Part shown: positions 3,799-51,224 of the stretch, piece by piece
How positions within the stretch are numbered: the stretch's first letter is position 1
How the letters are laid out: every line of letters begins with the position of its first letter
The notes under the pieces: model-generated
What the model was told of the DNA's origin: nothing
Seen by the model: only the letters and a program-made list of their open reading frames with translations
Databases searched by the model: none
From: a virus
Direction: 5' to 3' (one strand)
Length of the DNA: 53,527 bases
Virus record (IMG/VR): IMGVR_UViG_3300042987_002836
Location: 1-53,527 of that record
Made by a program: the position numbers and the translations under genes

Positions 3799-5649
3799 TT
3801 ACTTTCCTGCTCCGCCGACCGCGGTCAGCGCCTTGGCCGCCGCCGCGCCGATGAGCTGCGCCGCACTCGCGATGTCGCGTCCGCACGCTACAACCTGCGC
3901 CTTGGTGCCGCGGCAGATGTGCTCAGCCTCGCGTGACACGTGGCCGTGGTGCTCGAAGGTGAGCCACAAGACTCCGACACCAGCGCGATCACACTCGTTG
4001 ATCCACTTGCGTGCGGCCTGCCCCTCAGAGTGCGTGTAGCAGCCATCGCTTGCGACGACCAGGAGTCGTGCGCCGCCTCCAGAGAGGAGTGACACTCCAC
4101 CATCGAGAGCCTTGAACGCTTTGTCGAACCGCTCGGTACCATCAGGCGCGCTGTACACGCGGACCTTGTCGAGGTGCTGACCGGGCTTGAGAGTTGGGAA
4201 GACGCCTTGGCCGTAGTAGACCATCGCTGCTCGTCCTTGAACTCGGCGGACTGCCTCAGACATGACCCACGCTGAGACGGCCATTGGCTGCATCGCGTCG
4301 CTCATCGAGCCGCTGATGTCGACCATCATGCCGACCGAGAGGGTCGGGTCGTCGACGTGCTTGCGGACGGTGCGGCGCCAAGGCTCGACCTGCGTCATGA
4401 CACCCTTGCTCTTGAGCGCGGCGCCCTGCACCATCGCACGAGTGCGCAGGCGACCAGGAGGCAAGATCGAGTGGATCTCCTTCTCGTCGCGATCGCGGTA
4501 CTTCGCCTTGTCGAGCATCTGCGCGACCTTGACAGCGGCCGCGCGCTCGGGACCTGTCGGCTGACGCTCCTCAACAAGGCTGCTGTGAGTGTGCGTGTCT
4601 GCGACCGGACCAGTGCCCTTGCCGAAGACGTCGGCCGCGGTGTCGCGTGCGTCCTTGGCTTGCTTCGCGGCACCAGCGCGTGACTTGGCTTCGTCCTTCC
4701 AGTCCTGGCGCTCTTGCTGATCTGCGAGTTGGTCGTTGACAGAGACCGCGGTAGCTTCAGCGGCCTCCTCAAGAGCCTCCATCATCTCAGCGAAGTCCTC
4801 CGCACCGAGACCCGAGCTTGAGCCTTCGCCATCACCCGAGCCATCGCCGCTTCCGCTGCCATCACCGGGCTGACCATCTTCTGCATCCTCTTCGCCGCGC
4901 TCCTCAGAGACCTCCTTGACCAGCGCTTCCCAGCGTCGTGCGATGTCCATGAGCGCTGTGATGTTGGCGGCTTCAGTGTCTTGAGCTTGCTGCCAGAGAG
5001 CGCGGAGCTTGTCGTAGAGCTCTACGCCCAAGATGCCGACGATCATCGTGCCGAGATCGGCAAGGTCGTCGAAGTCGAGGACGCCAGCGTCGATGCGAGC
5101 GTACGTCAGAGCGGCCATGCTCGCGGCGATGCGAGTCTTAGATCCCTCAATCGGGTTGTCGCGCATGTCGGCGACGACCAGCTCGAGAGCGCACGCCTTG
5201 AGGAAGGCGGCCATGTCTGGGTCGAGAGCAACACCGCGCTTCTCGATGCGTCCCTCTTCGAGATACACCAGCGCCATGAACTCGTGGCGCGTGAGCTCGT
5301 GCTGCATCGCGATGATGTCCCACGTGCTGAACCGAGCGTGCATCGCTTCGTGATAGATGGCGCCGATGGCCTTCGGCCACTCGTACATGACGTCACGCTG
5401 AGTGAGGTCGCCGATCATCTCTGGCTTGATGCCTTTGCCGAACGCAGTCTCGACGTTGACCTCAACCTCCGCAGTCGCGGGAGTGAAGCAAGCCGGCGCT
5501 GTGCCGCCTGCGCCTGGTCCTACGTAGGCGATGAGGTCGCCGCGTGATGCCCACATGTTGGCGAGTATGCCGATCTTCGAGCCAACGGGCAGCCACTCTG
5601 ACGGAGTTGCCTGGCCCTTGGTCTTGCGTTTGTAGTCGATGTGTCCCAT
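3799..5649 (-). CDS. CobT-like protein with HExxH metallopeptidase-like and VWA domains (616 aa)
   Basis: Residues 99-136 carry HEAMH followed by LEEGRIE, the layout of a gluzincin-type zinc site. Residues about 250-280 are an acidic Gly/Ser linker, followed by a helical region. Residues about 435-600 form a VWA domain with the MIDAS motif DISGS (444-448) and a later SDG. VWA proteins of this type (CobT and relatives) work with MoxR/CobS AAA+ ATPases, and such an ATPase is encoded directly upstream (5781-6779). In cobaltochelatase, CobS and CobT energise cobalt insertion by CobN; no CobN is seen here. Alternatives are a metal-insertion or remodelling chaperone of another target, or an active protease controlled by the VWA domain. 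Promoter copy 8 and its own leader precede it. Confidence 0.8.
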   Translation of the reverse strand: MGHIDYKRKTKGQATPSEWLPVGSKIGILANMWASRGDLIAYVGPGAGGTAPACFTPATAEVEVNVETAFGKGIKPEMIGDLTQRDVMYEWPKAIGAIYHEAMHARFSTWDIIAMQHELTRHEFMALVYLEEGRIEKRGVALDPDMAAFLKACALELVVADMRDNPIEGSKTRIAASMAALTYARIDAGVLDFDDLADLGTMIVGILGVELYDKLRALWQQAQDTEAANITALMDIARRWEALVKEVSEERGEEDAEDGQPGDGSGSGDGSGDGEGSSSGLGAEDFAEMMEALEEAAEATAVSVNDQLADQQERQDWKDEAKSRAGAAKQAKDARDTAADVFGKGTGPVADTHTHSSLVEERQPTGPERAAAVKVAQMLDKAKYRDRDEKEIHSILPPGRLRTRAMVQGAALKSKGVMTQVEPWRRTVRKHVDDPTLSVGMMVDISGSMSDAMQPMAVSAWVMSEAVRRVQGRAAMVYYGQGVFPTLKPGQHLDKVRVYSAPDGTERFDKAFKALDGGVSLLSGGGARLLVVASDGCYTHSEGQAARKWINECDRAGVGVLWLTFEHHGHVSREAEHICRGTKAQVVACGRDIASAAQLIGAAAAKALTAVGGAGK

Positions 5650-5678
5650 AGTTTGTCCTTTGTCCTTGTCCCTGGTAT

Positions 5679-5703
5679 CAATTATAACAACTTTAGTTTC
5701 TGA
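5679..5703 (-). promoter_or_regulatory. Left-arm promoter element, copy 8
   Basis: GAAACTAAAGTTGTTATAAT on the minus strand, 31 nt before the ATG of the VWA-protein gene. It gives this gene its own promoter although the partner ATPase lies directly upstream, so the two can be expressed at different levels. Confidence 0.85.
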
Positions 5704-5717
5704 GAACCCCTAAGGGA

Positions 5718-5746
5718 GGTCCCTGGACACCTACTATCCAGAGACC
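5718..5746 (-). terminator. Hairpin between the AAA+ gene and promoter copy 8
   Basis: Ten-bp stem with one G-U pair (arms 5718-5727 and 5737-5746) and a 9-nt loop, located between the stop of 5781-6779 and promoter copy 8. The flanks are also GC-rich and palindromic. Probable terminator separating the two units. Confidence 0.55.
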
Positions 5747-5780
5747 CCCCGCAGCCAAGAGAGCCGAAAGGGGTGAAGGC

Positions 5781-6779
5781 TCAGATCTTGGCAGGTCTGC
5801 ACTCCTCGCCAAAGACGCGAGTGAAGACATCGGCGACCACCGGGCGATCGAGCTCGGGCGCTGCCGCGAGCAAGTTGCTGATGGCGAACTTGGTGCCGAA
5901 GGTCGTGCTGAGGTCTCGGAAGGCGAGGAGCTCACGCATCTGCGGAGCCCACGACGTCTCGGCCGAGTCCTGCTTCTTGGCGAGGTTCTGCGCCGCGGTG
6001 ACGGCGGCAGTCGGAACGCCGAGCTTGCGAGCAAGCGACCAGTCGGTGGTCATCTCGGCGTGAACCGCGAAGCGAGAGAGGAGAGCCTCAGAGAGACGAA
6101 CTCCTGGCGCATTCGGGTTGGTGGCCGCGATGACGTAGAACCCATCGGCAGCTTTGACGGTGCCGCGTTCAGGATTGGCTGTGACGTTGTACTCGCGTCG
6201 ACCGTCCATGAGACCGTAGACGATGCTGAGCACCTTCGGGTCGATGAGGCCGATCTCGTCGATCAGCAGGACGCCGCCGGCTTCCGCAGCTTTGACAAGC
6301 GGACCATCTTCCCAGATGAAGCCGCCGCTCGGAGTCTGGACGTAGCCGCCCACAAGATCTGCGACTTCAGTGTCGCCTGAGCCGAGCACAGTCTGCATGC
6401 CGCCGGCCTGGTCGTAGAACGCCGCTTCGACGAGTGCAGTCTTGCCGCAGCCGGGAGCTCCGTAGAGGAGGATGTAGCTGGACATCTCACGCGCTTTGCG
6501 GAGGACCATGACGTCGTCATGCTCGCCCCACTTGCGAGTGTAGTAGGCCTCGCCATTGGGTCGCATGAACTTGTCCATGCCAGTGAGTGATTCGGTGGTC
6601 GTCACGGCGACTTTCTTCTTGGGCGCTGGTGCGCGGGTCGGAGTGATCTTACCTTGTGCATTGACGTGCTCTGCGAGCTTCGCGGCCGCGTTGGTGTCGA
6701 ACGCCTGAGCGGCGGCCGAGACCAGCAGGTCGGCTAGGCCGGCGCTGAGCTTGTCGTAGTCTGGAATTGTTGATGTCAT
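5781..6779 (-). CDS. MoxR/CobS-like AAA+ ATPase (332 aa)
   Basis: Walker A GAPGCGKT at residues 107-114, Walker B LLIDE at 171-175, sensor 1 ATN at 219-221 and an SRF arginine-finger-like motif at 235-237. The region VLGSGDTEVADLVGGYV matches the MoxR/CobS/dynein-like (AAA_5) group. The first 60 residues are Ala- and Lys-rich and probably flexible. It is encoded upstream of a VWA protein, the standard genomic pairing of MoxR ATPases. Expected role: ATP-driven remodelling of a client presented by the VWA partner, possibly cobalt chelation. Function in the phage is inferred. Confidence 0.88.
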   Translation of the reverse strand: MTSTIPDYDKLSAGLADLLVSAAAQAFDTNAAAKLAEHVNAQGKITPTRAPAPKKKVAVTTTESLTGMDKFMRPNGEAYYTRKWGEHDDVMVLRKAREMSSYILLYGAPGCGKTALVEAAFYDQAGGMQTVLGSGDTEVADLVGGYVQTPSGGFIWEDGPLVKAAEAGGVLLIDEIGLIDPKVLSIVYGLMDGRREYNVTANPERGTVKAADGFYVIAATNPNAPGVRLSEALLSRFAVHAEMTTDWSLARKLGVPTAAVTAAQNLAKKQDSAETSWAPQMRELLAFRDLSTTFGTKFAISNLLAAAPELDRPVVADVFTRVFGEECRPAKI

Positions 6780-14346: not shown

Positions 14347-14359
14347 TTCTGATTCCATG

Positions 14360-14433
<74 letters not shown>

Positions 14434-14443
14434 TATTTTTGAG

Positions 14444-14517
14444 AGCCCTCGGTGGGATTCGAACCCACGACCACCTCATTACAAGTGAGGTGCTCTGGCC
14501 AGCTGAGCTACAAGGGC
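14444..14517 (-). tRNA. tRNA-Thr (anticodon UGU)
   Basis: Minus strand begins GCCCTTGTAGCTCAGC. Acceptor GCCCTTG/CGAGGGC (one G-U pair), anticodon stem CCTCA/TGAGG with loop CTTGTAA, and T-arm GTGGGTTCGAATCCCAC. Discriminator U, CCA not encoded. Ten bp upstream of tRNA-Pro. Thr and Pro are very abundant in the collagen-like and Thr-rich proteins of this phage. Confidence 0.93.
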
Positions 14518-16523: not shown

Positions 16524-19500
16524 ATGAATACGACTCACCCGTCCGGGTGGGGAGACCAAGGGGCAACAACTTCATACAAGCGTCGCGCGATCCGCAGGCG
16601 CTTTCTTGCCGTTCTTCCGGCCTTCATGTGGGTGCTTGCGCTTGTTCCGCAGCCCAAGTCAGTGAGCGCCTCGGACGGTCAAGGACTTGTTTTTGCGTGG
16701 CAGTCTGCCACCGTCTCTCAAGACGTAGCGGTTCCTGGCAACTGGGCGTCGGCGTCTACACTTACGGCGACCGTCAGCGCGGCGGAGACGCAAGACTGGA
16801 AGGCGTCATCTGACACTCTTACCGTCGGCATCCAGCTTCTTGGCGCAGGCGGAGGAAGCATCTACAATCACAACACGGGCGTCATCACGCTTACCGACGG
16901 CGGAACTTTCAATAACTACTCGATCAGCGTCACGGCGGCTGGCGTCGGCGCGGGTTGGGCAAGCGTCGCTACCGTTCGTATCTATATCATTGGTCAAGAC
17001 GGCGAGTTCTGGGCAGGCAACTACGGCACCCGCGTCGACACCGCGTCTCTCACGCTAGACGGCACGGAGCTGCTCGCGAACGGCGAGTTCGCATCTACGT
17101 CTGGCTGGACATCGTCTCTAGGCTGGCAGACATGCTCGGGCGGATCAGGCGCGTTCCCGTGCGTTGGCCAGTCAGCCGTTCAGATCAACAACCCGACAAC
17201 GACCACGACTTCTTCTACAACTACTACGACCACAACGACCGTCCCCGCTCCTGGAGCAGGCACCGAGACGACCGAGAACTTTGAAGGTCCCGGCCCGACG
17301 ACCGCCGGCCTCACCGCAAGAGTCAACGGCAACGCGCTGACGACATCGAACCAGAGCGGCTGGTACTACGCGAACATGAACAACGGCTACGGCACTCAAG
17401 GCTACGCGATCTACGCGGGCAACCCGAGCGCCGCGATGACGATCACGCTTCCGTCCGCGCTCAATCCGCGAAGCTTCTACTTCCGTGTCGGCGCGAAGAA
17501 CGGCGATGCAACAGGCACCGTCACCTACTCCGACAGCACAACGGCGTCGTTCACGATCGGCAACTCTGTTCTTACCGCCGGCTGCTCGACATGCCAGGCT
17601 CCCGGTTACTACAAGGAGATCTACTTCAACGGCAACGGCAAGATCATCACGAGCTTCTCTCTTCCAGCAGAGGGCGACATCTACTTCGTCGACATGCTGC
17701 GCATCAGCGACGCGACCGCCGTCTCGAGCGGTGTCGATCCGAACCCGTCGCTTACGACTACAACCACCACCACTACTACAACAACAACTACGACTACTAC
17801 TACGACAACAACAACAACAACAACAACAACAACAGTTCCAGCCGCGACTTCTCTCGAAGTGTCCAGCCTTCTAGACGATGGGTCAGCCGGCACCTTGCGC
17901 TGGGCGATCACGCAAGCGAACGCAACAGCAGGCGGCGCGTACGACGCGATCACATTCACGGTGAACGGGACGATCGAGTTGACAAGCTCTCTGCCACAGA
18001 TCACTCAGAGTGTGACGATCACCGGCAACGGAAAGACAAACACGATTATCGACGGGATGACCTTGTACCGTCCGTTCAACGTCGCATCAGGCAGAACATT
18101 GACTGTCTCCGACATGACGCTGAAGCGCGGTCCCTCCGCTAACGGTGGTCTTATCTATAACGGCGCCGGAACAGTGACGGCAAGCAACATGCGCTTCACG
18201 ACAATGGGAGGCGGCAGCGCTGTTTGGAACAACAACGGAACCTCAGTAGCAACATACACAGACTGCACATGGGACGCTCTTTACACGGGCATTGGTGGAG
18301 ACTACGGAAGCACCCCAAACCTTACTGCTGGCTACACCTCGTGGGACGCGGTCAACCCCTCTAATGGAGCACTGATTGCCCCAGACACGGTGTTCTCAAA
18401 TAGGACTTATGTGATAAGAGGAACCTTCACTGGCAACACGTACGGAATCAACCAACAGCGTTTTACGAAAGTCCAAGACTCAACATTTACAAACAACGGA
18501 ATTGCTGCGAGTATCAATGGTCTCAACAGAAGCCAGATTCTTGATTCAACATTTTCTGGAAGCTCTATAGCGATTTATCACAGCTCGTGGATTCCCGTCG
18601 GCTGGAACATGGGCACCAATAATCGACTCATTGACGGGAACACATTCACCAACAACACGATTGCGATAGATCTGGCAGACGGTTACAACAATGGTCAGCG
18701 CTATCAGGGTTGGGCGACGGTTAGTGACAATTCTTGGGATGAAAACGGAACCTGGATTAGATACGCAGTTTGGAACTCAACATCAAATGCGAACACAACT
18801 GGCACTTTGATTCCGGGTCAAGAAACAACCCTGCTCGCACAGTCGGGAAATACCGTCCCTACGACGACAACCACTACGACGACAACCACCACAACGTCAA
18901 CCACCACGACCACGACAACCACACCACCGTCGCAAGAGCAAGCAACGCCAAGCGGAACAACTTCTTCAACTACAGCACCCCCAGCCGAGCCAGAAGACAC
19001 AACACCAGACACAACACCAGATACGACGCCAGATACTTCCGTCGATCCTGAGGACCCAGATACGACCGCACCGGAATCCACACTGCCAGACCCAGAAGAA
19101 GAATCCACGCCAGAGACGCTTCCAGAAGAAACAGAGCCAGAAGAGACAGTGCCAGATACGTCGCCTGAAACAGAACAGACAGAACCTGAAGCGGAAGAGC
19201 AAATAGTTGAAGAGCCTGAATCACAAGAAGACACTACCACTGAACCTGGAGAAATTGTTGAGATCGACACAGAGGCCGCGATTGAAGAGATTCTTTCAGT
19301 TGAGTCGGCGGAAGAGCTGGCCGAGGTGCTGTCGGACATCCTGGATCAACCGATCAGCGACGAGCAGTTCGACGAGGTTATCAGCGCGGTCCTTGACGAG
19401 CCGCTGACGACTCAAGAACTTGAAGCGGTCCTCGACGTCTTAGAGTCCGACTCGGTCACCGAAGAGCAGGTCGCGTCGGCTGTTGACAAGATCCTTGAGA

Positions 19501-20030
19501 ATGAGGTCGACACAGGCGCGGCCGTCGCGCTCGTGACAAGCGAGAAGGTCCTCGAGTCCATCAGCACCGAGCAGGCAGAACAGATCTTCGAGGCGATCGA
19601 CACCGAGCAGCTAGACGACTCGGCCAAGACCGAGATCGCCGAGGCCTTGACAGACGCTCCAGAAGACGTGAAAGAGACGTTCGAGGAGACGATCGACATC
19701 TACGGCGACGGCTTCGACGAGTACACGCCTGTTGGATCTGTTGTTACAGTAGGAGAAAGGCGCACGCTGATCGCCGCGACAGCAGTCTTGTCGACCGCTG
19801 GCGCTGGCGTTGCGATGGCTGGAGGAGCGTCTGGCGGTTCACCGTCAGGCGGTGGCAGCGGCGGGAGTAGCGGTGGCGGCTCTTCAGGTGGCGGTAGCAG
19901 CGGTAACGACGCGGCGAAGAAACCAGAAGAAGAGGAAGAGGGCGGCGGAGAGTTGACGGGGCCAGAAGAAGACGACGATGACGAAGAGTTTACACGCAAT
20001 AGCATCTTCAAGTACCCCGAGGAGTTGTAA
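16524..20030 (+). CDS. Large secreted, Thr-linked beta-helix protein with C-terminal membrane anchor (1168 aa)
   Basis: Residues 1 to about 49 form a long signal peptide (basic KRRAIRRR, hydrophobic core, cleavage near VSA-SDG). An N-terminal jelly-roll-like domain follows, then a poly-Thr linker (about 224-242), a second beta domain, and a 25-plus-residue poly-Thr tract (about 411-437). Residues about 443-772 are a right-handed beta-helix beginning LEVSSLLDDGSAGTLRWAIT, typical of bacterial surface proteins. A third Thr linker, an acidic Pro/Glu/Thr stretch (about 803-912) and a helical repeat region (about 912-1070) lead to a TM helix (RTLIAATAVLSTAGAGVAMA), a Gly/Ser spacer and an acidic tail. 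The architecture resembles Acidimicrobiia surface proteins and was probably acquired from a host. It could be displayed on the infected cell (exclusion, aggregation) or be a virion adhesin. Its stop overlaps the next ATG (TAATG). Confidence 0.8.
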   Translation: MNTTHPSGWGDQGATTSYKRRAIRRRFLAVLPAFMWVLALVPQPKSVSASDGQGLVFAWQSATVSQDVAVPGNWASASTLTATVSAAETQDWKASSDTLTVGIQLLGAGGGSIYNHNTGVITLTDGGTFNNYSISVTAAGVGAGWASVATVRIYIIGQDGEFWAGNYGTRVDTASLTLDGTELLANGEFASTSGWTSSLGWQTCSGGSGAFPCVGQSAVQINNPTTTTTSSTTTTTTTTVPAPGAGTETTENFEGPGPTTAGLTARVNGNALTTSNQSGWYYANMNNGYGTQGYAIYAGNPSAAMTITLPSALNPRSFYFRVGAKNGDATGTVTYSDSTTASFTIGNSVLTAGCSTCQAPGYYKEIYFNGNGKIITSFSLPAEGDIYFVDMLRISDATAVSSGVDPNPSLTTTTTTTTTTTTTTTTTTTTTTTTTTTVPAATSLEVSSLLDDGSAGTLRWAITQANATAGGAYDAITFTVNGTIELTSSLPQITQSVTITGNGKTNTIIDGMTLYRPFNVASGRTLTVSDMTLKRGPSANGGLIYNGAGTVTASNMRFTTMGGGSAVWNNNGTSVATYTDCTWDALYTGIGGDYGSTPNLTAGYTSWDAVNPSNGALIAPDTVFSNRTYVIRGTFTGNTYGINQQRFTKVQDSTFTNNGIAASINGLNRSQILDSTFSGSSIAIYHSSWIPVGWNMGTNNRLIDGNTFTNNTIAIDLADGYNNGQRYQGWATVSDNSWDENGTWIRYAVWNSTSNANTTGTLIPGQETTLLAQSGNTVPTTTTTTTTTTTTSTTTTTTTTPPSQEQATPSGTTSSTTAPPAEPEDTTPDTTPDTTPDTSVDPEDPDTTAPESTLPDPEEESTPETLPEETEPEETVPDTSPETEQTEPEAEEQIVEEPESQEDTTTEPGEIVEIDTEAAIEEILSVESAEELAEVLSDILDQPISDEQFDEVISAVLDEPLTTQELEAVLDVLESDSVTEEQVASAVDKILENEVDTGAAVALVTSEKVLESISTEQAEQIFEAIDTEQLDDSAKTEIAEALTDAPEDVKETFEETIDIYGDGFDEYTPVGSVVTVGERRTLIAATAVLSTAGAGVAMAGGASGGSPSGGGSGGSSGGGSSGGGSSGNDAAKKPEEEEEGGGELTGPEEDDDDEEFTRNSIFKYPEEL

Positions 20031-21503: not shown

Positions 21504-21539
21504 TATACAGTAATAAGCAACTACGAACGACAAGGAGAG

Positions 21540-22364
21540 GTGATGATGAACGCGCATAGCTACGGCGACGGTCTTGACATGTTTGACAAGGAAGTCGGAA
21601 TCATTCCTCCGACACCAACCGAACGCGGAGCGTTTGTCAAGATTCCAGAGGCGTACTCGGCGATGCTCGAGGTCTCGATGAAGTACGGGTATCTAGTCGG
21701 ATACGCTCAAGAGCAGGACGGAAAGTACATCCAGCATGTCTATCCGGTAAAGTCCTTCGAGACAGACCAGATCTCAAACTCGTCTAAGACTCAGCTCGAG
21801 CTTCACACCGAGACCGCGTTCCACCCGTACCGTCCCGACTACATCGTCCTCGGCTGCCTTCGCGGAGACAAGGCCGCTAAGACGACCTACGCTCACGTCG
21901 ACACCATCGTGTCTTTCCTCGACAACAAGACCGTCGATACCTTGACTCGTCCAGAGTTCATCACTACTGTTGACCAGAGCTTCCGTCTGCACGGCGAGCC
22001 AGACCAAGAGGTCCTGCTGCCGATCTTGACGACAGATAAGGACACCGGTCGTTGGCGAATGACCTTCGACAAGTCCACGATGCGAGGCACAAATCCAGAA
22101 GCTCAACGAGCTCTTGACCTGTTCGCGAAGGCCGTCGAGCCGTGTGTCAGAGAGATCTCTCTTCAGCGCGGTGATTTTTTGGTCATCGACAACTCAAAGA
22201 TCGTCCACGGTCGCACACCGTTCCCAGCTCGCTATGACGGCACCGACCGTTGGCTCATTCGCGGTTTGATACGCAAGGAGCTTCCGCCGTTCACCGAGCG
22301 CGAAGGCTCGGTAATCACGACAACTCGTTTCTCGAGGCAAGAGCCCGAACTTCAGTCTGCCTAG
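21540..22364 (+). CDS. Fe(II)/2-oxoglutarate oxygenase, clavaminate synthase-like (amino acid hydroxylase type) (274 aa)
   Basis: The iron site is visible: HTE at residues 89-91 and the distal His223 in IVHGR. ARYDGTDRWLIRG provides the Arg for 2-oxoglutarate. The block ELHTETAFHPYRPDYIVLGC and the distal pattern match the CAS-like group (AsnO, VioC, OrfP), which hydroxylates free Asn, Arg or Lys, and whose iron triad uses HxE rather than HxD. Length is a little short of the roughly 330 residues usual for that group. Strong AAGGAGAGGTG site, a TATACA-type promoter at about 21504, and a weak terminator after it, so it may be a separate unit. Substrate unknown: free amino acid, nucleobase-linked group and host metabolite are all possible. 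Confidence 0.82.
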   Translation: MMMNAHSYGDGLDMFDKEVGIIPPTPTERGAFVKIPEAYSAMLEVSMKYGYLVGYAQEQDGKYIQHVYPVKSFETDQISNSSKTQLELHTETAFHPYRPDYIVLGCLRGDKAAKTTYAHVDTIVSFLDNKTVDTLTRPEFITTVDQSFRLHGEPDQEVLLPILTTDKDTGRWRMTFDKSTMRGTNPEAQRALDLFAKAVEPCVREISLQRGDFLVIDNSKIVHGRTPFPARYDGTDRWLIRGLIRKELPPFTEREGSVITTTRFSRQEPELQSA

Positions 22365-22381: not shown

Positions 22382-22402
22382 CCTCTATCAAGAGGCTATT
22401 TC
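22382..22402 (+). terminator. Weak hairpin terminator after the oxygenase gene
   Basis: CCTCT-atca-AGAGG followed by CTATTTCT. The stem is only 5 bp but the loop is tight and a U-rich run follows. Confidence 0.45.
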
Positions 22403-22461
22403 TGTGTGTCACTCGTGCTTGTGACTTTTGTCTAGGATGAGACCAAGGCAAGGAGAGTCAC

Positions 22462-29170: not shown

Positions 29171-29345
29171 GTCGGCGCAGCAGCGCCGCCGCGTGCACCC
29201 AAAGACGGGTGCTGTCGAGATGGTCCCTGGTACAAAAGCCGGCAAGAGGCGTCAACGCCTACCGTACGGGCACGAGCTTCGCACGCATGACCTTCATGGT
29301 CCGGTCGGCGTAAAGAAAAAGCGACCGACCAACGCTTCTAAGTAA
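29133..29345 (+). CDS. Basic small protein (70 aa), GTG start
   Basis: Starts MGKKKSGGGSSGKSAQQRRR and stays basic to the end (GVKKKRPTNASK). Overlaps the preceding gene by 38 bp in another frame, with AGGAAAGCTCA before the GTG. Likely nucleic-acid binding. Its 3' end overlaps the convergent glycosyltransferase by 8 bp. Confidence 0.6.
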   Translation: MGKKKSGGGSSGKSAQQRRRVHPKTGAVEMVPGTKAGKRRQRLPYGHELRTHDLHGPVGVKKKRPTNASK

Positions 29346-30027
29346 GCCACTCGTTTCTAATCCGTCTATCGATCTGCCACTTCATGCTGTTCTGCTCGTC
29401 GACGGGTAGTTCTTCTTTAGCGTGAAAGTATCCGTGGTTCTCGCCGATCGTGAAGTTGTCTCTCTTGTAGAACTCTGGGCTTGAGTCTCTTGTTGTCCCG
29501 TGTGAGTAAAAGTTCATCTTGATTCCGGGTCTCTTGATCAAGCTCGCGAATCCCATTCGTGTAATCCTCCGCGTGTAGTCCGTGTCCTCGTAGTACGCGG
29601 GATAGAAGTTTTCGTCGAATAACCCGACCAGCCTCACGATGTCGCGTCCGAGCGAGAACGTCGCGTATGGCTCTGGGTCCGTTACAACCATGTGGCACTC
29701 AGAGCTCTCGTTGATCAGCCGAGTCAGCTCTCCTGGAATCCACCCGTTGTCATGAGACCCAAAGATCACGAACGGTTCATGAGGATACAACTTGATCCCT
29801 AGGTTCCAAGACCCTGCTACCCCTAGGTTTGACGGCAGGTTCAGGATCTTCAGTTCATAACTGCGGCTGAAGTTTTCAACTAGATCTGTATAATGACCGC
29901 CGTTGTCTATGATCAAGATCTCTTTGATCCTGTCATCGTCCACCGACGCCAGCGTTCTGTCAAGCAGGTCGTAGCCGTTCAGCACCGGTATGACCATCAC
30001 CGCCCGACCGTCTCTCTCGTCTAGCAT
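29338..30027 (-). CDS. Family 2-like glycosyltransferase (229 aa)
   Basis: Starts MLDERDGRAVMVIPVLNGYD at the TGATG overlap with the upstream gene. GT-A features: VIPVLNGYDLLDRTLASVDD, EILIIDNGGH, LPSNLGVAGSWNLGI, VIFGSHDNGW and the later YYEDTDYTRRITRMGF typical of GT2/rhamnosyl- or galactofuranosyl-transferase-like enzymes. Could glycosylate the host surface, phage virion or DNA; no modified-base genes are seen nearby. Confidence 0.82.
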   Translation of the reverse strand: MLDERDGRAVMVIPVLNGYDLLDRTLASVDDDRIKEILIIDNGGHYTDLVENFSRSYELKILNLPSNLGVAGSWNLGIKLYPHEPFVIFGSHDNGWIPGELTRLINESSECHMVVTDPEPYATFSLGRDIVRLVGLFDENFYPAYYEDTDYTRRITRMGFASLIKRPGIKMNFYSHGTTRDSSPEFYKRDNFTIGENHGYFHAKEELPVDEQNSMKWQIDRRIRNEWLT

Positions 30028-30632
30028 CAGTCGTTCTTTTTCTTGCAGCCTTTCATCTCGGGCTTCCAGGTGCATGGGTCCCACGGGCCAAAGCCCGCGA
30101 TGTCATAGAGATACTTGCCCGCCTTGAGGTTCGTTACCGGGTCAAGAAGCGTCTCTTGGTCGCAGATTCCCATGTCGCGGCAGATGCTTCCAGAATAGCT
30201 CGGGTGGTCCTTCTTCCAGTGAGTACCGTTGATCTGGAGCAGCCCCGTGTCCGACCGGTGGTTCCACTCCGAGACCCGAGTGATGCGGCAGTTCTTGTCA
30301 ACAACGTCGCCTCCCCTGCGGTTCGGGCAGCCGCCCGACTCGCGGAGGATGATCTCGCCGAGCTTGTCCCAGGTCTCTTCTGGCCAGCCCGCCTCGGCGG
30401 CCAGCTTCGGCAGCCACGAGATGTCACCGTGCCGAAACACGATTCCGCGGTTCTTTTCCTTCTCCATCAACCTTTCCAGGTGGTCAGCTGCGACTTGGAC
30501 TGGAACAGTCCCGGCCCGGGTAGCGACGACCTCAACGGCAGGTTTCGTAGTGTCTACACTCTCGGCCTTCAAGTTGAAGGCCCCGCTAAGGCTACTAACA
30601 GACAATAGGAATATCGTCAGTAGTTTTGTCAA
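30027..30632 (-). CDS. Secreted lytic transglycosylase (SLT-like) (201 aa)
   Basis: Signal peptide of about 24 residues (MTKLLTIFLLSVSSLSGAFN). Catalytic Glu98 in GEIILRESGG, then SDTGLLQINGTHW (about 127-139), the lysozyme-fold signature, and NLKAGKYLYDIAGFGPW near the end. Six cysteines in the mature part (CPNRR, NCRI, CRDMGICD, PCTW, GC) suggest disulfides outside the membrane. Third wall-degrading enzyme in the window and the only one with its own export signal. Confidence 0.85.
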   Translation of the reverse strand: MTKLLTIFLLSVSSLSGAFNLKAESVDTTKPAVEVVATRAGTVPVQVAADHLERLMEKEKNRGIVFRHGDISWLPKLAAEAGWPEETWDKLGEIILRESGGCPNRRGGDVVDKNCRITRVSEWNHRSDTGLLQINGTHWKKDHPSYSGSICRDMGICDQETLLDPVTNLKAGKYLYDIAGFGPWDPCTWKPEMKGCKKKND

Positions 30633-30802: not shown

Positions 30803-31150
30803 ATGCTTGCAGGAGTTCTGCACTTGAAGATGGAGCAGGGTGCTACGTTCACCCAGCGCCTTACCTGGAAGATCGACGGATCTCCTGTTGATCTAACGTC
30901 TTATTCTGCACGAATGAAGGTCCGTCGCATGGTCCAAGAACCGGCGATCTTGTCGCTGACAACATCGGCAGGCGGCGGGATCGTGCTCGGCGGAGTCAAC
31001 GGGACGATCGACATCACCGTGTCGGCAACGCAGACCGCGCTGCTGAACGCGGGCAAGTACATGTACGACCTCGAGCTTGTCACGGCGGGCGGAGTTGTAA
31101 CTCGTCTCGTCAAAGGAAGGCTCACGATCGACGCAGAGATCACGTACTGA
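30803..31150 (+). CDS. Phage structural-type protein (115 aa)
   Basis: The ATG at 30803 is chosen because it gives [20 protein letters not shown], the usual opening of a family found with phage tail genes, and GGAGG lies about 13 bases upstream; a GTG at 30746 is the alternative. Beta-rich domain with a strand pattern [18 protein letters not shown]. Its stop overlaps the next ATG (TGATG). Probably a baseplate or fibre-attached protein. Confidence 0.65.
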
Positions 31151-32913
31151 TGGACGACCTTGCTAGCAGCGTAGTCTACGTCGATGTCTCGAAGACAACT
31201 GTAGAGGTCACCGAGACCGAAGCGATCATCGAGGTCATCAACGAAAAGACAGAGGTCATCATCTCTGGTGATCAAGGTCCGCAGGGCATTCAAGGACCGA
31301 CTGGTCCAACTGGTCCAACTGGGCCAACAGGTCCTCAGGGCGCGGCGTCAACAGTCACCGGCCCAACTGGACCGGTGGGTCCAACAGGTGCGACGGGCCC
31401 AGCAGGAGTTGCAGGCGCTTCAGGTGCAACAGGTCCTACTGGAGCTCAAGGCATACCAGGAACTGAAGGCGCGACCGGGCCAACGGGTCCTCAAGGTGTT
31501 GCAGGAGTCGAAGGTGCTCCAGGTGTTGACGGCGCGACCGGGCCTACAGGTCCGCAAGGCGCGCAAGGAGACATCGGCGCGACGGGTCCAACTGGACCAA
31601 CAGGTCCGACAGGTCCGACTGGACTTCAAGGAGTTACCGGTCCTACAGGGCCTCAAGGTGTCACGGGACCCGCAGGCGCAGACTCGTTTGTGACTGGACC
31701 AACCGGTCCTGCCGGCGCAACAGGCCCTATCGGCCCAACTGGTCCAACAGGTGCTGACTCAACTGTCACAGGTCCTACCGGCTCAACCGGTCCGACAGGG
31801 CCTACAGGCCCTACAGGTCCAATTGGACCAGCTGCAACGCTGACATCGACGTCCCTCGTTCGTCACCTTGTTCGCAACGGCACCGAGTCAACAATCAACA
31901 TTGGCCAAGCTGTCTACATCACAGGATCAACAGGTACTTCTGGAACAAACATGCTTGTCGCTCCAGCTGACTACAGCGTGGAAATGACTTCTTCAAAGAC
32001 TCTTGGAGTAATGGCAGAGACTATAGCTCCAAACGCTGTTGGATACGTAGTCACAGAAGGTCTTCTTGAAGGATTTGACACATCCGCTGCCGGCGCTGCA
32101 GGTGATCCGATATGGCTTGGCGATAACGGAAATCTGATCTACGGACTAGCAAATAAGCCAGAAGCACCGAACCATCTAGTGTTTATTGGAATCGTTACAC
32201 GAGATCAGCAAAACAACGGAGAAATCTTCGTTCGTCCGCAGAACGGCTTCGAGCTTCAAGAGCTGCACAATGTCTCAATATCAAACCCTCAACCTGGAGA
32301 CACTCTTCTATACAACGCAACAACAAGTCTTTGGTACAACGCAGCAGCGGGATCAGGCGGGTCAGGTGCAACAGGACCTACAGGACCAGCAGGTGCAACA
32401 GGACCTACAGGACCAGCAGGTGCAACAGGACCTACAGGACCAGCAGGTGCAACAGGCACGGCGGGCGCGACCGGTGCGACTGGACCTACAGGACCAGCAG
32501 GCGCAACAGGACCTACAGGACCAACTGGAACATTTAGCTCAGACGGAACAGTCGTCCTCGAGACAGTGAATGAAAAGTTGACGACAATCAGCGGCGCAAC
32601 AGGCGCGACTGCGCTTGACTACTCGCTTGGTTCTATATTCAACTTCACAAACATAGCCGGAAATATCACGGCAAACATTACAAACTTGTCGCTTGCCACT
32701 AACACAGCAACAAATATCACAACTGTTCTTCAGCAAAACGCAACAGGTCACATGATCACCGCTTTACAAATCGCTGGAGTTTCGCAGACAATAAACTGGC
32801 AAGCAGGAATTGTCCCCACCGGCAACGTAGGTAAAAAAGACATCGTAATGTTCACCATCTACAACATTGCCGGAACTTACTTAGTTCTTGGTCAACTAGT
32901 TACGTTCGGATAA
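31150..32913 (+). CDS. Collagen-like tail fibre protein (587 aa)
   Basis: Residues 1-40 are a beta-rich adaptor. GPTGP collagen-type triplets run over about residues 40-232, followed by a globular domain ([20 protein letters not shown] to about 400) known from tail fibres. A second short GPT collagen run (about 404-457) and a C-terminal beta domain follow. Three collagen chains would form a triple helix. The second collagen run is an exact 30-bp tandem repeat at DNA level (32370-32460), so its length may vary. Confidence 0.88.
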
Positions 32914-39164: not shown

Positions 39165-42100
39165 ATGCAGGACAAGGTGGATTCGTCGGTGAGCTGGTCA
39201 GAGGACATTGTAACTCGTGTTGTAACCGGTAGCTACATTACCGCGCGCGGAACTGCGGGGCGAGGCACGGTCACGTTCACTCCAACTAGCACGGTTGTTG
39301 ACGAAAACGACGATGTCATCGTAACAGATCCCGTCGTGGCTACTCTCGATGGATCAGGTGCGTTCAGCATCACTCTTCCAACAACAGACAACCCAGCGCT
39401 CAAGCCAACTGGCTGGGCATACGAAGTTCAGGTGCGAATCAACGGCGTCAAGCCGACTAAGTTCTGGATCTTCTTGCCTGTTGGTGACGGAAGTCCGGTC
39501 GACATCTTCTCTCAACTTGGCAGTCTTTCTCCTGTCTCTGACGCAACTGCTGGAGCAGCGGCTCGCGGCTCTATCGGTCCGCAAGGTTCAACCGGTCCTA
39601 CAGGTCCTTTGGGCCCAACAGGTCCTATCGGCCCAACAGGACCTTCAGGCGGTCCAACCGGTCCGCAGGGCCCGCAAGGCGAAACCGGTCCGACCGGTCC
39701 AGTCGGCGCAACAGGTGCGACAGGTCCGCAAGGTATTCAAGGCGTTCAAGGCGTCGCTGGCGACACCGGACCTACAGGTCCTGCTGGAACGTCGATCACA
39801 ATTCTTGGCTCATACGCTACATACAACGCACTCATTGCGGCGCACCCGACAGGAAATCCAGGTGATGGATATCTAGTTGACGGCGACCTGTATGTTTGGG
39901 ACAACGTCGGTTCAGAGTGGGACAACGTCGGCAGCATTGAAGGTCCAACAGGTCCGCAAGGCATTCAAGGTCCAACAGGTCCGCAAGGTGATGTTGGTCC
40001 GACAGGCCCGCAAGGCGATCAAGGTCCTCAAGGTGACGCAGGTCCAACTGGTCCGCAAGGTGACGTCGGTCCTCAAGGTGATGTTGGTCCGACAGGCCCG
40101 CAAGGTGACGCTGGTCCAACCGGTCCAGAAGGTGCAACAGGCCCTCAAGGAGATGTTGGCCCAACTGGACCCGAAGGCGCGACTGGTCCTCAAGGTGACG
40201 TAGGTCCGACAGGACCTCAGGGGGACACCGGTGCTACTGGTCCTACAGGCCCACAAGGCTTCGATGCGTTTGAGTATTCACCGCTGCGCGCGTTTGAAAA
40301 CGCGTATCAGCCTGGTGAGATCATCTTCTATAGTGGAAGTTACTTCATCTGTCTTGCGACAAACGACGCGCTTCCTCCGACAGGTGGAAACCTTGGAGTC
40401 TACTGGAATCCGTATTCGTTCGTTGGCGCAGTCGGCGCGACAGGTCCGCAAGGAGACATCGGCCCAACTGGTCCGCAAGGCGTTCAAGGCGACATCGGCC
40501 CAACAGGACCGCAGGGTGACCTCGGACCGACAGGTCCGCAAGGTGACATTGGCCCAACTGGTCCGCTCGGTCCTACAGGTCCGCAAGGCGACCTTGGTCC
40601 AACCGGTCCTCAGGGAACTGGCGTCACCATTCTTGGTTCATACGCGTCGTACGCAGCTCTCATTGCAGCTCAGCCGACAGGAAATCCAGGTGACAGCTAT
40701 CTTGTCGCCGGTGACCTGTACGTATGGTCTGCAACTACGTCATCGTGGGTCAACGTTGGTCAGATTCAAGGACCGACAGGTCCTGAAGGTGACATCGGCC
40801 CGACCGGCCCGCAAGGTGACGCTGGTCCAACCGGTCCGCAGGGCGAGCTTGGTCCAACTGGACCGCAAGGCGATATTGGCCCGACAGGTCCACAAGGCAT
40901 TCAAGGTGAAGTAGGTCCGACAGGTCCACTCGGACCAACTGGACCGCAAGGCGATCTTGGCCCAACAGGACCGCAGGGTGAACAAGGTGTAACTGGTCCG
41001 CAAGGCGATCTTGGCCCAACAGGACCGCAGGGCGACATCGGTCCTACAGGTCCGCAAGGAAACGTAGGTCCTACAGGACCTGAAGGTCCGACCGGACCAC
41101 AAGGCGATCTTGGCCCCACAGGTCCTCAAGGCTCGGCTGTAACAATTCTTGGCGAGTACGCCGATCTTGCTGCGTTGCAAGCTGCGCATCCGACAGGCAA
41201 CGCAGGCGACGGATACCTTGTTGAGAACGGCGACCTGTATGTCTGGGATGCTGTCGGTTCGACATGGGTCAATGTTGGTAACATTCAAGGACCAACAGGT
41301 CCAGTAGGCGCAACAGGTGCGACTGGTCCTCAAGGCGAGCCGGGGCCAACAGGTCCTCAGGGTATCGAAGGCAACGTCGGTCCGACAGGACCTACAGGTT
41401 CTCAAGGTGATGTTGGTCCAACTGGACCGCAAGGTGATGCAGGCCCGACAGGCCCGACAGGACCAACAGGTGACATCGGTCAGTTCGCCATTTCTTCAGC
41501 AACTCCTCCAGTGACTGCTGATCTTGGTGACGCTTGGTTCAACTCTTCGACAGGTCAGATCTTTGTCTACTACGACGGCTATTGGGTTGAGTCAGCGTCA
41601 AGCAACAAAGGTGACACAGGACCAACCGGTCCAGTCGGTCCGGCATCGACAGTTACAGGTCCTCGCGGACCAACTGGTCCAACAGGACCTACAGGTTCAA
41701 CAGGCCCAGCGTCAACAGTGACAGGACCTACAGGTCCAACTGGACCTACTGGACCGACGGGCCCAACCGGTCCTCTCGGTCCTCAAGGATTGCAAGGTCC
41801 AACAGGTCCAGGTATTACTGGTCCAACTGGACCGACAGGAGCTCAAGGTCCACAAGGAGTCACGGGCCCAACTTCGACAACTCCTGGGCCGACAGGTCCG
41901 CAGGGTCCTCAAGGTGCAACAGGTCCTACCGGCCCGACTGGCCCAGCGTCAACAGTTGCTGGTCCGCAAGGCGTCATTGGACCGACAGGGCCAACTGGAC
42001 CGCAAGGTCCAGCATCTAACGTCACGGGACCGACAGGTCCGCAAGGACCAACTGGTCCGCAAGGACTTCCGTCGAATGTCACTGGTCCAACAGGTCCACT

Positions 42101-42452
42101 TGGACCTACCGGTCCAGTCGGCGCAACAGGTCCCGGGTTCTACAATCTTACGTCGTCGATTATTACGTCGTCGCACACGCTCGGCGCGAGTGACGCTGGC
42201 AAGCTCGTCGAGGTCGACTCTGCGCTCGCGGTCGAGCTCACGATTCCAGCCGACTCGACGTACAACTTTGCAGTAGGCACGCAGCTCGTGATCGTTCAGG
42301 TCGGTCTCGGTCAAGCATCTGTTGCTCCTGCCGCCGGCGTGACTTTGAACTCAGAACAAAATAGGCGAAAGCTTTCGCAGCAGTGGTCAGGCGTGTCGTT
42401 GATCAAGCGTGCTGCAAACACGTGGGTTCTCTTCGGCAGCTTGGTAGACTAA
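39165..42452 (+). CDS. Giant collagen-like tail fibre protein (1095 aa)
   Basis: Residues about 1-125 are a structural beta domain ([20 protein letters not shown] ... TNPTGW-like) found at the start of phage minor tail proteins. Collagen-type GPT/GPQ triplets follow, interrupted three times by a module ([20 protein letters not shown]) that ends NVG and by one [20 protein letters not shown] module. A WFN/YYDGYW module lies near residue 775, more GPT repeats run to about 985, and a C-terminal trimer-type domain closes the protein. Modules are repeated at DNA level too. Likely a long rod bearing several receptor-binding heads. Confidence 0.9.
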
Positions 42453-43586: not shown

Positions 43587-45341
43587 GTGTCAGCAATTGA
43601 TTTTCCAAACGACCCGATTGTCGGTCAAGTACACACCGGAGGAAACTCTCAGTGGGTGTGGAACGGCACCGCTTGGGAGATGCTGCGCATTACTCCGACC
43701 GGTCCTACAGGACCTACTGGCCCGTTGGGTCCAACAGGCCCATACGGAATCTTCTCTATCGCGACCGAGACTCCACCCGCATCGCCGGCACTCGGTCAAG
43801 CGTGGTTCAACGGTGTAACTGGAAAAGTTTACGTTTACTATGACGACTTCTGGGTTGAAGTTGGTGCCGCACCTGTTGGTGCGACCGGGCCTACAGGCCC
43901 ACTTGGGCCGACAGGCGCGACTGGTCCGCAAGGACTTCCGTCGAATGTCACTGGTCCAACAGGCGCTACTGGTCCGGCGGGCGAGTCAATCACAGGTGCA
44001 ACAGGCCCAGCTGGAACAAACGGCAAGTACCTAGCAGGAGAAACATACCCAAACCCGACGCCTGAAGAAGGCGACGCTTGGTTCAACACGATCAACTTGA
44101 AGACATACGTCTATTACGACGGATTTTGGGTTGAGGTTGCAGCGAACGATGCCGGTCCAACTGGTCCGACTGGTCCCGAAGTTCCTGGCCCAACTGGACC
44201 TCAAGGTCCAATTGGTCCGACAGGGCCTCAAGGCGAAGCGATCACAGGTCCTACTGGTCCGCAAGGTCCATTAGGTCCTACTGGACCATCAGGCGGACCC
44301 ACAGGTCCGACGGGACCTCGCGGTGCAACTGGACCAACAGGTCCGACTGGACCTGGAGTTACAGGACCAACTGGTCCAACTGGACCGACAGGGCTTGCGC
44401 TTGTTCCGTTCAGAAACTTGCTCATCAACGGAGACATGCGCATCGCTCAGCGTGCTACGTCGGTGACATCGATCTCTTCAACAAACTACTACACAGTAGA
44501 TCGCTTCAATCACGCGATCTCAGGCGTAGGTATCTGGACGTCAGAACAGGTAAGCGACGCCGTTGATGTTTCTCGAAGCGCGTTGAAGCTTACCTGCACG
44601 GCCGCGACGCCAAGTCCGACAGCTAATGCGTTTTCGCGCATCGAGCAAAAGCTCGAAGGATTTGACGTTCAGTCTGCTAAGAAAGGAACAGCTGGTGCTC
44701 TTGCGCTGACTCTTTCATTCTACGTAAAGTCTAATGTTGTCGGCACGTACATCGCAGAACTCTATGACAACGACAACACTCGCTCGGTTAGTGCCGCGTA
44801 CAGTGTCAATGTCGCGAACACGTGGGAAAAGAAGACAATCACTTTTTCAGGCGACACGGTTGGCCAGTTCGACAATGACAACAACGCTTCATTGATTGTC
44901 GGTTGGTACCTCGGCGCCGGAACTGACTACACAAGTGGAACTCTTGCATCATCGTGGGGAGCTGTAGTCACTGCTAACAGAGCTGTCGGCCAGACAAACC
45001 TCGGAGCATCAGCTTCTAACTACATCATGTTTACGCAGGCGCAGCTTGAAGTAAACACAATCGCAAGTCCATTCGACGTCAGGCCTCTCTCGACAGAACT
45101 TACTCGCTGCATGCGGTACTTTGAAAAGTCTGCAGGCAACTCGCATGCAGTCGTCACGGCAGCGTCTTCGTCTTTCCCGACGGTGTTCTACAAGGTGCGC
45201 AAACGCGCTACTCCAATCCTTACACCTACGTACAACGTCGGCACCGGCGCGTCATTCACCGTAAGCGCAGACGGCCACGTGCAGACCGGCAACCACTCGG
45301 CTGGCTCGCTGTACACCTTTACTTCATCGGCTGAACTGTGA
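43587..45341 (+). CDS. Collagen-like tail fibre protein (584 aa), GTG start
   Basis: Begins with the adaptor [16 protein letters not shown] ... [11 protein letters not shown] shared with 45349 and 46629. Short collagen runs alternate with two [12 protein letters not shown] modules. The C-terminal part ([40 protein letters not shown] to the end) is the known NLLINGDM-type globular fibre domain. GAGGAG precedes the GTG. Confidence 0.88.
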
Positions 45342-51000: not shown

Positions 51001-51224
51001 TCTTTGAAACAGACACTGACTACATCAACCGCTATACCTCTAGCGGATGGAAGGCTCTCGGTCCGGTGTTCATCGGTTTTACGACCGACGACAGTGGCAA
51101 CCTCACGGCTGTCACAGGTCCGGACGGAACCTATAATGTTGGAGACTACACCGACTATGGCATTCTCCCAGCGGAGATGGCAGTGTCGGTGAACGCCTCC
51201 GGTCAATTGGTACTCACCTCGTAG
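48051..51224 (+). CDS. Long tail fibre with carbohydrate-binding repeats (1057 aa)
   Basis: GTG start after GGTGGAGGTAGT. Residues about 10-320 are six repeats of about 50 residues (for example NFRGNYNAVTPYAVNDVVAF ... YWEKFVDGL), the CBM5/12-like pattern. Two repeats of about 175 residues follow, each with a motif like GAHDGYIFMNAPTG and NLVLATG ... NKIVFAAGG and ending TTGALVVAGGVGVQG, as in T4-like cyanophage fibres. After a further beta region, an AKGDIIVATAPDAMTRLGVG motif precedes the end domain. Likely a long fibre binding host polysaccharide. Confidence 0.88.
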   Translation: MAQLIDLGKLRFYFAGEYSTATEYELNDCVRYGGNVYVYTNEVATTGTLPTATSHWQVMVEGINFRGNYNAVTPYAVNDVVAFGGILYTCIQNSTNNVPTNTTYWEKFVDGLQYEGNYNNTTPYQKNDIVTYGARAYIATATTTGNLPTNTSYWQVFADGLASLGLYNAATEYKKNDVVFLGGRTYVALRDTVGDEPGATGSGSDWAVFADGLKFRSNWNTATRYELNDIVLRGGNAYICTLAHTSAGTFNADLTALKWSIYSQGFRFRGVWTPETDYLVNDLVSDGNSTYVSSADFTSGATSILDDAYWSIFALGADYLPAQVSNENKLLSTDGTDPFWSSDINISGDVQAGGVLYLGQDAYTIATTVALPNLIGLAVGDAGGSSEEYAQFVVWNKNTDGLASTDLIVQTHDASDTDGFIDIGITGENFDSTTYGITGPNDGYLFMVAPTGTTGEGNLVLATGDTGTANKIVFAAGGLTSGNTQMEIIPDTSVHIEIATASTSTTTGALVVAGGVGVQGDMNVQGDLNVVGNLALSGLDYIGVGDGAAEFGATLTNPIATFQIDADDYAQVAFRNISDAANASTDFIAYADDGSDNDGYIDMGITSSNFADPEFTLTGAHDGYIFMNAPTGSGGAGNLVLATGANGVENKIVFAAGGLTSGNEQMIITPFQSVHVEIATESTSATTGAFTVDGGIGLTGNLNVGGNVGIVGNVDIQGQITIAGGGTTFDTANLAVVDPMIYVAQSNSDNAVDFAFVGEAAFPITPIARTVTNKVLTDNIATLTVSAAHTFQEGDYVVVAGVDATFNGTHLITDLPTASSFSFAKTATNVPAASATGTATVSNRAKYSGLAKDATDGVWKLFADASTKPANTVNFSEAGVRYDDLQLRNITAVGNVAVTGTLKQNNHDVLTNDIANAKGDIIVATAPDAMTRLGVGSNTTFIQADNTQATGLKYTSLATDTVLGAVQVTASTSRPASPSIGQLIFETDTDYINRYTSSGWKALGPVFIGFTTDDSGNLTAVTGPDGTYNVGDYTDYGILPAEMAVSVNASGQLVLTS

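Follow-up and report, generated by a model that had tools for sequence, protein, structure and literature searches.

A conserved phage clade of clavaminate-synthase-like oxygenases with a pocket predicted to hold a free cationic amino acid

What use would a phage have for an oxygenase of a kind otherwise met in antibiotic pathways? The question is raised by one gene in a stretch of 53,527 nucleotides (here called the window), which is the virus record IMGVR_UViG_3300042987_002836 of IMG/VR and is thus viral, as had been assumed. A preliminary description placed the product of this gene with AsnO, VioC and OrfP, enzymes of peptide antibiotic pathways that act on free amino acids, and regarded it as unexpected in a lytic-type phage. 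In a literature search covering titles and abstract starts, with subscription journals mostly outside its coverage, no clavaminate-synthase-like (CSL) enzyme in a phage appeared among the matches listed. Phage genes of this superfamily have been labelled "TauD/TfdA family dioxygenase", as in phage DSL-LC01, or read as sulfur genes, as for a freshwater-virus tauD (PMC9469726).

The coding sequence of the Fe(II)/2-oxoglutarate (2OG) oxygenase occupies positions 21540..22364 (+) and comprises 274 amino acids as listed, counted from a GTG. It is a real gene; matches to known proteins (Pfam TauD at 4.8e-18, and CSL chains of the PDB down to 2.5e-36), together with dN/dS, rule out a chance reading frame. 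Against the TauD superfamily profile PF02668 the protein scored 66.4 bits, above the gathering score of 27, and PHROGs returned weak matches alone, the best being phrog_18172 at 5.7e-4. A Shine-Dalgarno-like AAGGAG, read in the sequence at 21532..21537 (+), precedes the candidate start codons by 5 nt (ATG 21543), 8 nt (ATG 21546) and 2 nt (GTG 21540). Because this spacing suits either ATG better than the GTG, translation more likely begins at ATG 21543 or ATG 21546, and the protein is probably 272-273 aa long. The promoter-like region once ascribed to the gene was not recovered: between 20900 and 22800, sigma-70-like sites numbered 0, against 0.5 in shuffled sequence. The proposed terminator fared in part: a site scan found two short, weak stem-T hairpins (22382-22395 and 22408-22425, +), and both strands of the scanned stretch held 4 terminator-like sites against 1.5 +- 1.1 in shuffles, but the putative terminator stretch folded no better than shuffled sequence (z -0.04).

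Relatives of this gene recur in uncultivated viruses. A search of IMG/VR with six peptides of the window protein gave 227 encoding stretches, a lower bound, from which the best 80 were retained, and a profile-based search gave at least 332. Together with DSL-LC01, the window and its refetched copy, the retained loci made 83 rows, which were reduced at a 90% identity limit to 40 representatives; since these were drawn from the best 80 of 227 loci, they stand for the nearest part of the family. Among named phages a relative was present in only one of 50,697 records, that of Actinomycetia phage DSL-LC01; in view of the IMG/VR count, the surprise first voiced at such an enzyme in a phage should nonetheless be moderated. 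The DSL-LC01 protein (OQ999401, WJZ48424.1), 46.5% identical to that of the window over 89%, is another member of the phage clade, is named for its superfamily alone, and has some neighbours in common with the window gene (reductase, Fpg/Nei, VanY). At the DNA level, similarity of the region was found among named phages in DSL-LC01 alone, and there just in the large gene upstream. DSL-LC01 is called lysogenic by its authors; the main text of their paper contains neither "TauD" nor "dioxygenase", and of its two places with "oxygenase" one concerns DSL-LC04 and one a reference (PMC10611076).

Low dN/dS values indicate that the gene is strongly constrained by purifying selection. The window gene differs from its near relative L001 by 63 synonymous and 3 nonsynonymous changes (3 amino-acid differences; dN/dS 0.011) and from L002 by 62 and 3, with the same ratio, L001 and L002 themselves being separated by a single synonymous difference. 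Values of 0.056-0.103 were obtained for six other phage pairs, 0.105 for one cellular short-form pair, and a median of 0.085 over the 66 pairs of the L021 cluster. For a seventh pair of phages, L035/L075, the ratio was 0.454, the start of L075 being uncertain, and synonymous sites were saturated in L026/L028 and L017/L038.

Both profiles and predicted structure place the phage proteins among the CSL enzymes. At E <= 1e-5 the family profile matched 16 distinct PDB sequences, all of them CSL enzymes, with the L-lysine 3-hydroxylase KDO1 as the best (7e-51). A structure model of the phage protein was obtained from 38 related sequences (pLDDT 90.6, pTM 0.89), its alignment (A1) holding 38 of the 40 representatives and omitting L081 (DSL-LC01) and L075. 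In structural comparison, ranks 1-43 were all CSL entries, the next being the gamma-butyrobetaine hydroxylase BBOX1 (Z 19.4). KDO1 came first (Z 30.5), followed by VioC (29.2), AsnO (29.0), NapI (28.7), CmnC, OrfP (28.0) and clavaminate synthase (CAS, 27.9), with KDO5 lower at about 24. The 50 listed Foldseek rows were likewise CSL chains, with AsnO and KDO1 on top, so the proposed kinship with the AsnO/VioC/OrfP group is sound at the level of the structural family. The best BFVD match was a giant-virus gamma-butyrobetaine-dioxygenase-like protein at 15% identity, and no phage DNA or protein hydroxylase was present among the structural and Foldseek matches listed. The best NCBIfam models all remained far below their cut-offs: GntD, an L-enduracididine beta-hydroxylase (NF041363; 176.6 against 345 bits, E 7.7e-52), VioC (TIGR03946; 155.6 against 418.6 bits) and clavaminate synthase (NF043003; 148 against 450 bits). 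Given the structural ranks and these scores, the phage protein belongs to the CSL family without being any of the enzymes for which curated models exist. Taurine dioxygenase proper has an HxD carboxylate ligand, whereas the corresponding residue is Glu, within HTE, in all 40 phage representatives.

The closest characterized enzyme is KDO1 (PDB 6f2a, PMC6224419), the best VIA match as well as the best profile match of the phage protein. The two superpose over 255 residues (rmsd 1.9, best structural match), have identical iron ligands, 2OG residues and listed lysine contacts, and carry a similar FD/YDxxxMRG-type segment after pocket position P15. They differ in overall sequence (31% identity over the model) and in the spacing from P12 to P15, which is 30 residues in 27 of the 40 representatives against 34 in KDO1. 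VioC, OrfP and CmnC, the L-arginine beta-hydroxylases of antibiotic pathways, adopt the same fold (Z about 28-29) and have in common with the phage protein the iron triad, the 2OG site, the Asp pair at P12 and P15, and the HGR and RYDGxDRW motifs; at P2, however, the Glu of the phage proteins is replaced by Gln in VioC and OrfP.

The catalytic residues were scored in the 40 phage representatives and are intact throughout. The motifs named in the preliminary description, HTE (residues 89-91), HGR (223-225) and ARYDGTDRWLIR (230-241), are all present, and the enzyme type that it had assigned agrees with the invariance of the iron triad and both arginines. HTE, at 21804..21812 (+), supplies the putative iron ligands His89 and Glu91. 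The segment HGRTPFPARYDGTDRWLIR, at 22206..22262 (+), supplies the third, His223, as well as Arg237 for 2OG and Arg241 for the substrate alpha-carboxylate. The His-Glu/Asp-His triad of CSL enzymes (P8, P9, P17) is thus complete in 40/40, and no loss of the iron site was seen in the predicted structure. The two arginines, at P18 and P19, are present in 40/40, with roles as described for CSL enzymes (PMC6224419), and Thr115, assigned to 2OG, is equally invariant.

The substrate pocket is conserved to the same degree. Glu58 and Gln59 (P2 and P3; 21711..21716, +) are found in 40/40; in most CSL groups the amino group of the substrate is contacted by a Gln or Glu in position P2, and Glu is the predicted alpha-amino contact there as in KDO1 and AsnO. 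Ser79 (21774..21776, +; 40/40) is the equivalent of KDO1 Ser168, a contact of the substrate carboxylate (PMC6224419). Asp145 (P12; 21972..21974, +) and Asp177 (P15; 22068..22070, +), which correspond to KDO1 Asp234 and Asp268 in the substrate sub-pocket, are also invariant, as in CSL enzymes with cationic substrates. The KDO1 residues reported to touch lysine are Glu180, Arg332, Asp234, Asp268, Ser168 and Ser236 (PMC6224419); their counterparts Glu91, Arg241, Asp145, Asp177, Ser79 and Ser147 are identical in all 40 representatives. In the same study, an Asp pair at P12 and P15 goes with substrates whose side chains are positively charged, and an Arg in position P3 with reaction at C4 (PMC6224419). 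Since the phage proteins have the Asp pair, and Gln rather than Arg at P3, the rules of that study predict a cationic amino acid and attack at C3. We therefore think it probable, with moderate confidence, that the phage enzyme C3-hydroxylates a free cationic L-alpha-amino acid, likeliest lysine or a similar diamino acid, in an infected actinobacterium. To read the gene as a sulfur gene would mislead for a large and strongly selected phage clade whose pocket predicts such a substrate.

The same pocket sets bounds on this prediction. P12 and P15 are Asp in 44 and 51 of 54 other bacterial CSL rows, so the pair narrows the substrate class only. At P16, where VioC and KDO1 carry Asp, the phage family varies (Asp in 5/40, Ser in the window protein), so the cationic pocket would be weaker than theirs. 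Lysine, ornithine and arginine cannot be told apart by this pocket, and ornithine, arginine and others are candidate substrates as well. It is quite improbable that this CSL enzyme uses another free amino acid or another chemistry, for instance that it hydroxylates asparagine or, like NapI, desaturates arginine. AsnO and NapI are structurally almost as close as the best matches (Z 29.0 and 28.7), and AsnO, an asparagine hydroxylase, has the phage iron site and Glu at P2. AsnO nevertheless has no Asp at P12, where the alignment shows Pro, matching the motif PPSD of the published comparison (PMC6224419); Asp145, in contrast, occupies P12 in every phage representative, so the AsnO sub-pocket is not present. 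NapI in turn lacks the P2 Glu (Leu in the alignment) and the P14 Ser. On these residues, we favour attack at C3 of a free amino acid with a cationic side chain over an AsnO-type reaction. Least probable of all, to the point of being barely credible, is a chiefly non-biosynthetic role as a consumer of 2OG or as an effector that binds amino acids. ORF78 of DSL-LC04, another phage 2OG oxygenase, has been proposed to act by way of 2OG levels (PMC10611076); a mere 2OG sink, however, would have no need of the substrate-pocket residues that are invariant here.

In the mechanism that we propose for C3 hydroxylation, the putative enzyme would take Fe(II) on His89, Glu91 and His223, 2-oxoglutarate on Arg237 and Thr115, and O2. 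The alpha-amino and alpha-carboxyl groups of a free substrate would sit on Glu58 and Arg241, and its cationic end would be held between Asp145 and Asp177, under a lid. Hydroxylation at C3 would then take place in the cytoplasm of the infected actinobacterium. As a first guess, the phage may benefit from a change in host amino-acid metabolism; for example, a beta-hydroxy amino acid might be cleaved by a host threonine aldolase to glycine and an aldehyde.

The phage proteins are short for their family. Apart from two over-long mechanical reading frames (513 aa), the phage frames encode 254-305 aa, against mostly 307-336 aa in the nearest long-form bacterial frames and 324-394 aa in the solved CSL chains matched, all of which are longer than the phage CSL proteins. 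Among the eight helices of KDO1, three (alpha2, alpha3 and alpha8) build the contact between the subunits of the dimer, and a conserved helical dimer interface is described for KDO1, KDO5, VioC, OrfP and AsnO (PMC6224419). The phage model has four helices of at least 4 residues, and its first residue aligns with KDO1 residue 80, so the helices upstream of that point are absent from the phage protein. In the model, these would correspond to alpha2/alpha3 and so probably to part of the dimer interface, and we infer that the usual interface is gone or reduced. The absence of these helices counts against the proposed C3 hydroxylation.

Phylogenetic analysis separates the phage enzymes from those of the antibiotic pathways. 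In a careful tree of 50 of the 126 rows, arbitrarily rooted, phage proteins and short cellular forms lie together on one side of a 100/100 branch, apart from the VioC/OrfP/NapI clade (100/99) and the AsnO clade (100/98), which are themselves separate; CmnC was not in the tree. A quick tree of 120 rows (L089, L104, L152, L155, L156 and L159 left out as partial or split), also arbitrarily rooted, recovered the phage-plus-short clade with a support of 99. The antibiotic-pathway link made at the outset holds at the family level only, and the phage proteins were not seen to group with DNA or protein hydroxylases of phages, the outcome that would have spoken against an amino-acid hydroxylase. Long-form, mostly Acidimicrobiia bacterial proteins are likely the sister of the phage clade (93/89, not starred), while a grouping of phage, long-form and KDO1 proteins had a support of just 79/23. 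None of the constrained topologies was rejected (p-AU 0.154 for phage with VioC, 0.287 with AsnO and 0.418 with KDO1). Like the variable P16, these branch supports weaken the case for C3 hydroxylation of a cationic amino acid.

Genomic context was compared in bacterial relatives, taken as the best 80 of 455 from genome contigs. Many of the bacterial contigs, and some of the viral ones, stop close to the gene, so a missing neighbour does not amount to absence. The 19 sister long-form loci (L090-L108) comprise, by title, 13 from Acidimicrobiia or its subgroups, 2 from Actinomycetota and 4 proteobacterial ones. An RpiR-type regulator lies near the oxygenase in 11 of them, and a threonine-aldolase-like (PF01212) gene adjoins it in 5. 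Threonine aldolases cleave beta-hydroxy amino acids, and in guanitoxin synthesis GntD is paired with GntG in a retro-aldol step. Since such aldolases cleave these compounds and their genes adjoin, the long-form oxygenases probably make beta-hydroxy amino acids, and by analogy the adjoining aldolase in 5/19 sister loci fits beta-hydroxylation. The five loci (L090, L091, L094, L096, L107) show a mostly Acidimicrobiia group of CSL oxygenase, threonine-aldolase-like gene and RpiR-type regulator, possibly an amino-acid breakdown route; in L090 the aligned aldolase part overlaps the oxygenase frame by 5 bases, and L091 and L096 are near copies (aldolases 95% identical). The phages are thereby linked to an apparently uncharacterised Acidimicrobiia oxygenase-threonine aldolase gene pair.

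This context does not extend to the phages examined, which counts against the proposed C3 hydroxylation. A phage-borne aldolase partner was rejected, with PF01212 in 0 of 26 records and no tblastn match at 1e-3 in the phage or short-form loci searched. The 26 records were chosen among those carrying the oxygenase, mostly as longer contigs, and were scanned whole for PF01212, collagen, GT2 and WhiB. WhiB genes, described as a mark of actinobacterial phages (PMC6802176, PMC10202952), occur in 16 of the 26, including the record of the near relative L001, and none matched in the window itself. These genes suggest that the hosts are probably actinobacteria.

The short-form cellular members of the clade point in another direction. 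The contigs of all seven loci (L083-L089) are titled actinobacterial, those of L083-L088 coming from related Actinomycetota MAGs, and in L088 the gene looks chromosomal, being surrounded by genes for a chaperonin, an alanyl-tRNA-synthetase-domain protein, and GlnD- and PAC2-type proteins. A conserved 405-aa protein (c73), with no Pfam match and no PDB match at E <= 1, adjoins the gene in 6 of 7, the seventh contig ending in the gene. Matches were found in 21 of 61 genomes sampled from the family of one short-form genome (17 stronger than 1e-60) and in 12 of 148 from its order (2 stronger than 1e-60); the genomes of L087, L088 and L096 belong to one family sample. Kdo-type sugar genes (DAHP_synth_1, SIS-CBS, cytidylyltransferase, GT8) lie near the short-form gene in 5 of the 7 loci, a sugar-biosynthesis rather than catabolic setting that weighs against the metabolic role proposed above.

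The sugar genes bear on what we grade as the main rival, though an unlikely one: a pathway of glycan or surface decoration directed by the phage would draw a beta-hydroxylated amino acid from this enzyme, which would work with nearby glycosyltransferases and methyltransferases in remodelling the host envelope or the virion. In 13 of the 40 representatives, a gene from a glycosyltransferase or SAM-methyltransferase cluster (c19, c26, c39, c43, c68) lies within two genes of the oxygenase, a suggestive count with no fair background, since neighbours were annotated for their nearness and by one example per cluster. GT2 genes occur in 16 of the 26 records (15 over the cut-off), but the other 10 have no GT2 match, and in the window the GT2 gene (29338-30084) is 7 kb from the oxygenase. 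The neighbours moreover vary between phage lineages, and no amino-acid-activating or ligating enzyme is found among those annotated.

About 1 kb separates that GT2 gene from a gene for a collagen-like fibre (31150-32913), and the window has 24 matches to the collagen family PF01391 at E <= 0.001, a few of them on the opposite strand; DSL-LC01 also has collagen-like proteins. Hydroxylation of a virion or surface protein, for instance of collagen-like tail fibres in the manner of collagen lysyl hydroxylases, is nonetheless very improbable. Collagen matches occur in only 8 of the 26 records, and a general role as collagen hydroxylase was rejected on that count. P4H, AspH and other protein hydroxylases are treated as a separate family whose pocket is constructed in another way (PMC6224419). 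The contacts for the alpha-amino and alpha-carboxyl groups of a free substrate are retained in 40/40, which disfavours both the virion-protein and the nucleotide-linked substrates first considered for this enzyme.

What the locus encodes, then, is a phage version of a known enzyme family, strongly conserved, recurrent in uncultivated viruses and open to a testable substrate prediction. The gain is a substrate list for assay and a set of CSL proteins whose length falls below that of all solved CSL chains matched. On C3 hydroxylation of a cationic amino acid one may build a broader and rather doubtful idea, that during infection actinobacterial phages use their own minimal CSL enzyme to produce a basic, beta-hydroxylated non-protein amino acid, either as a building block, for example of a glycan on the host surface or the virion, or to starve or rewire the host lysine/ornithine pool. 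If true, this would be a phage-encoded step of a kind characterized so far in bacterial secondary metabolism.

Several other features of these phages deserve mention. Upstream of the oxygenase, the window encodes a 1168-aa protein (16524-20030, +) with 17% Thr and long poly-Thr tracts; by eye it has a signal-peptide-like start and, near the C end, a hydrophobic stretch and an acidic tail. It has no Pfam or PHROG match and looks like a phage-encoded, mucin-like protein of the host surface; of 89 loci surrounding the oxygenase gene, 31 encode a relative. Its own gene contains, at 17760-17834, about 25 consecutive in-frame codons that resemble ACA (88% matches). The window also carries a tRNA-Thr with anticodon TGT, which reads ACA (14443-14517, -), and a tRNA-Pro TGG (14359-14433). 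Large collagen-like or repeat-rich tail-fibre genes lie at 31150-32913, 39165-42452, 43587-45341 and 48051-51224, followed at 51243-53186 by a fibre-like protein for which PHROGs gave matches to RCC1-like repeats. At 3799-6779 (-), a protein with a weak VWA match, below the Pfam cut-off, stands beside an AAA_5 ATPase, a pair resembling one in DSL-LC01 whose members carry the annotations AAA ATPase and cobalamin-biosynthesis protein. In DSL-LC01 (OQ999401, 101148-107690), a tryptophan-halogenase-like gene lies beside a glycosyltransferase, with collagen-like genes one gene further; by its predicted product, it is a second enzyme of secondary-metabolism type in a phage of the same clade.
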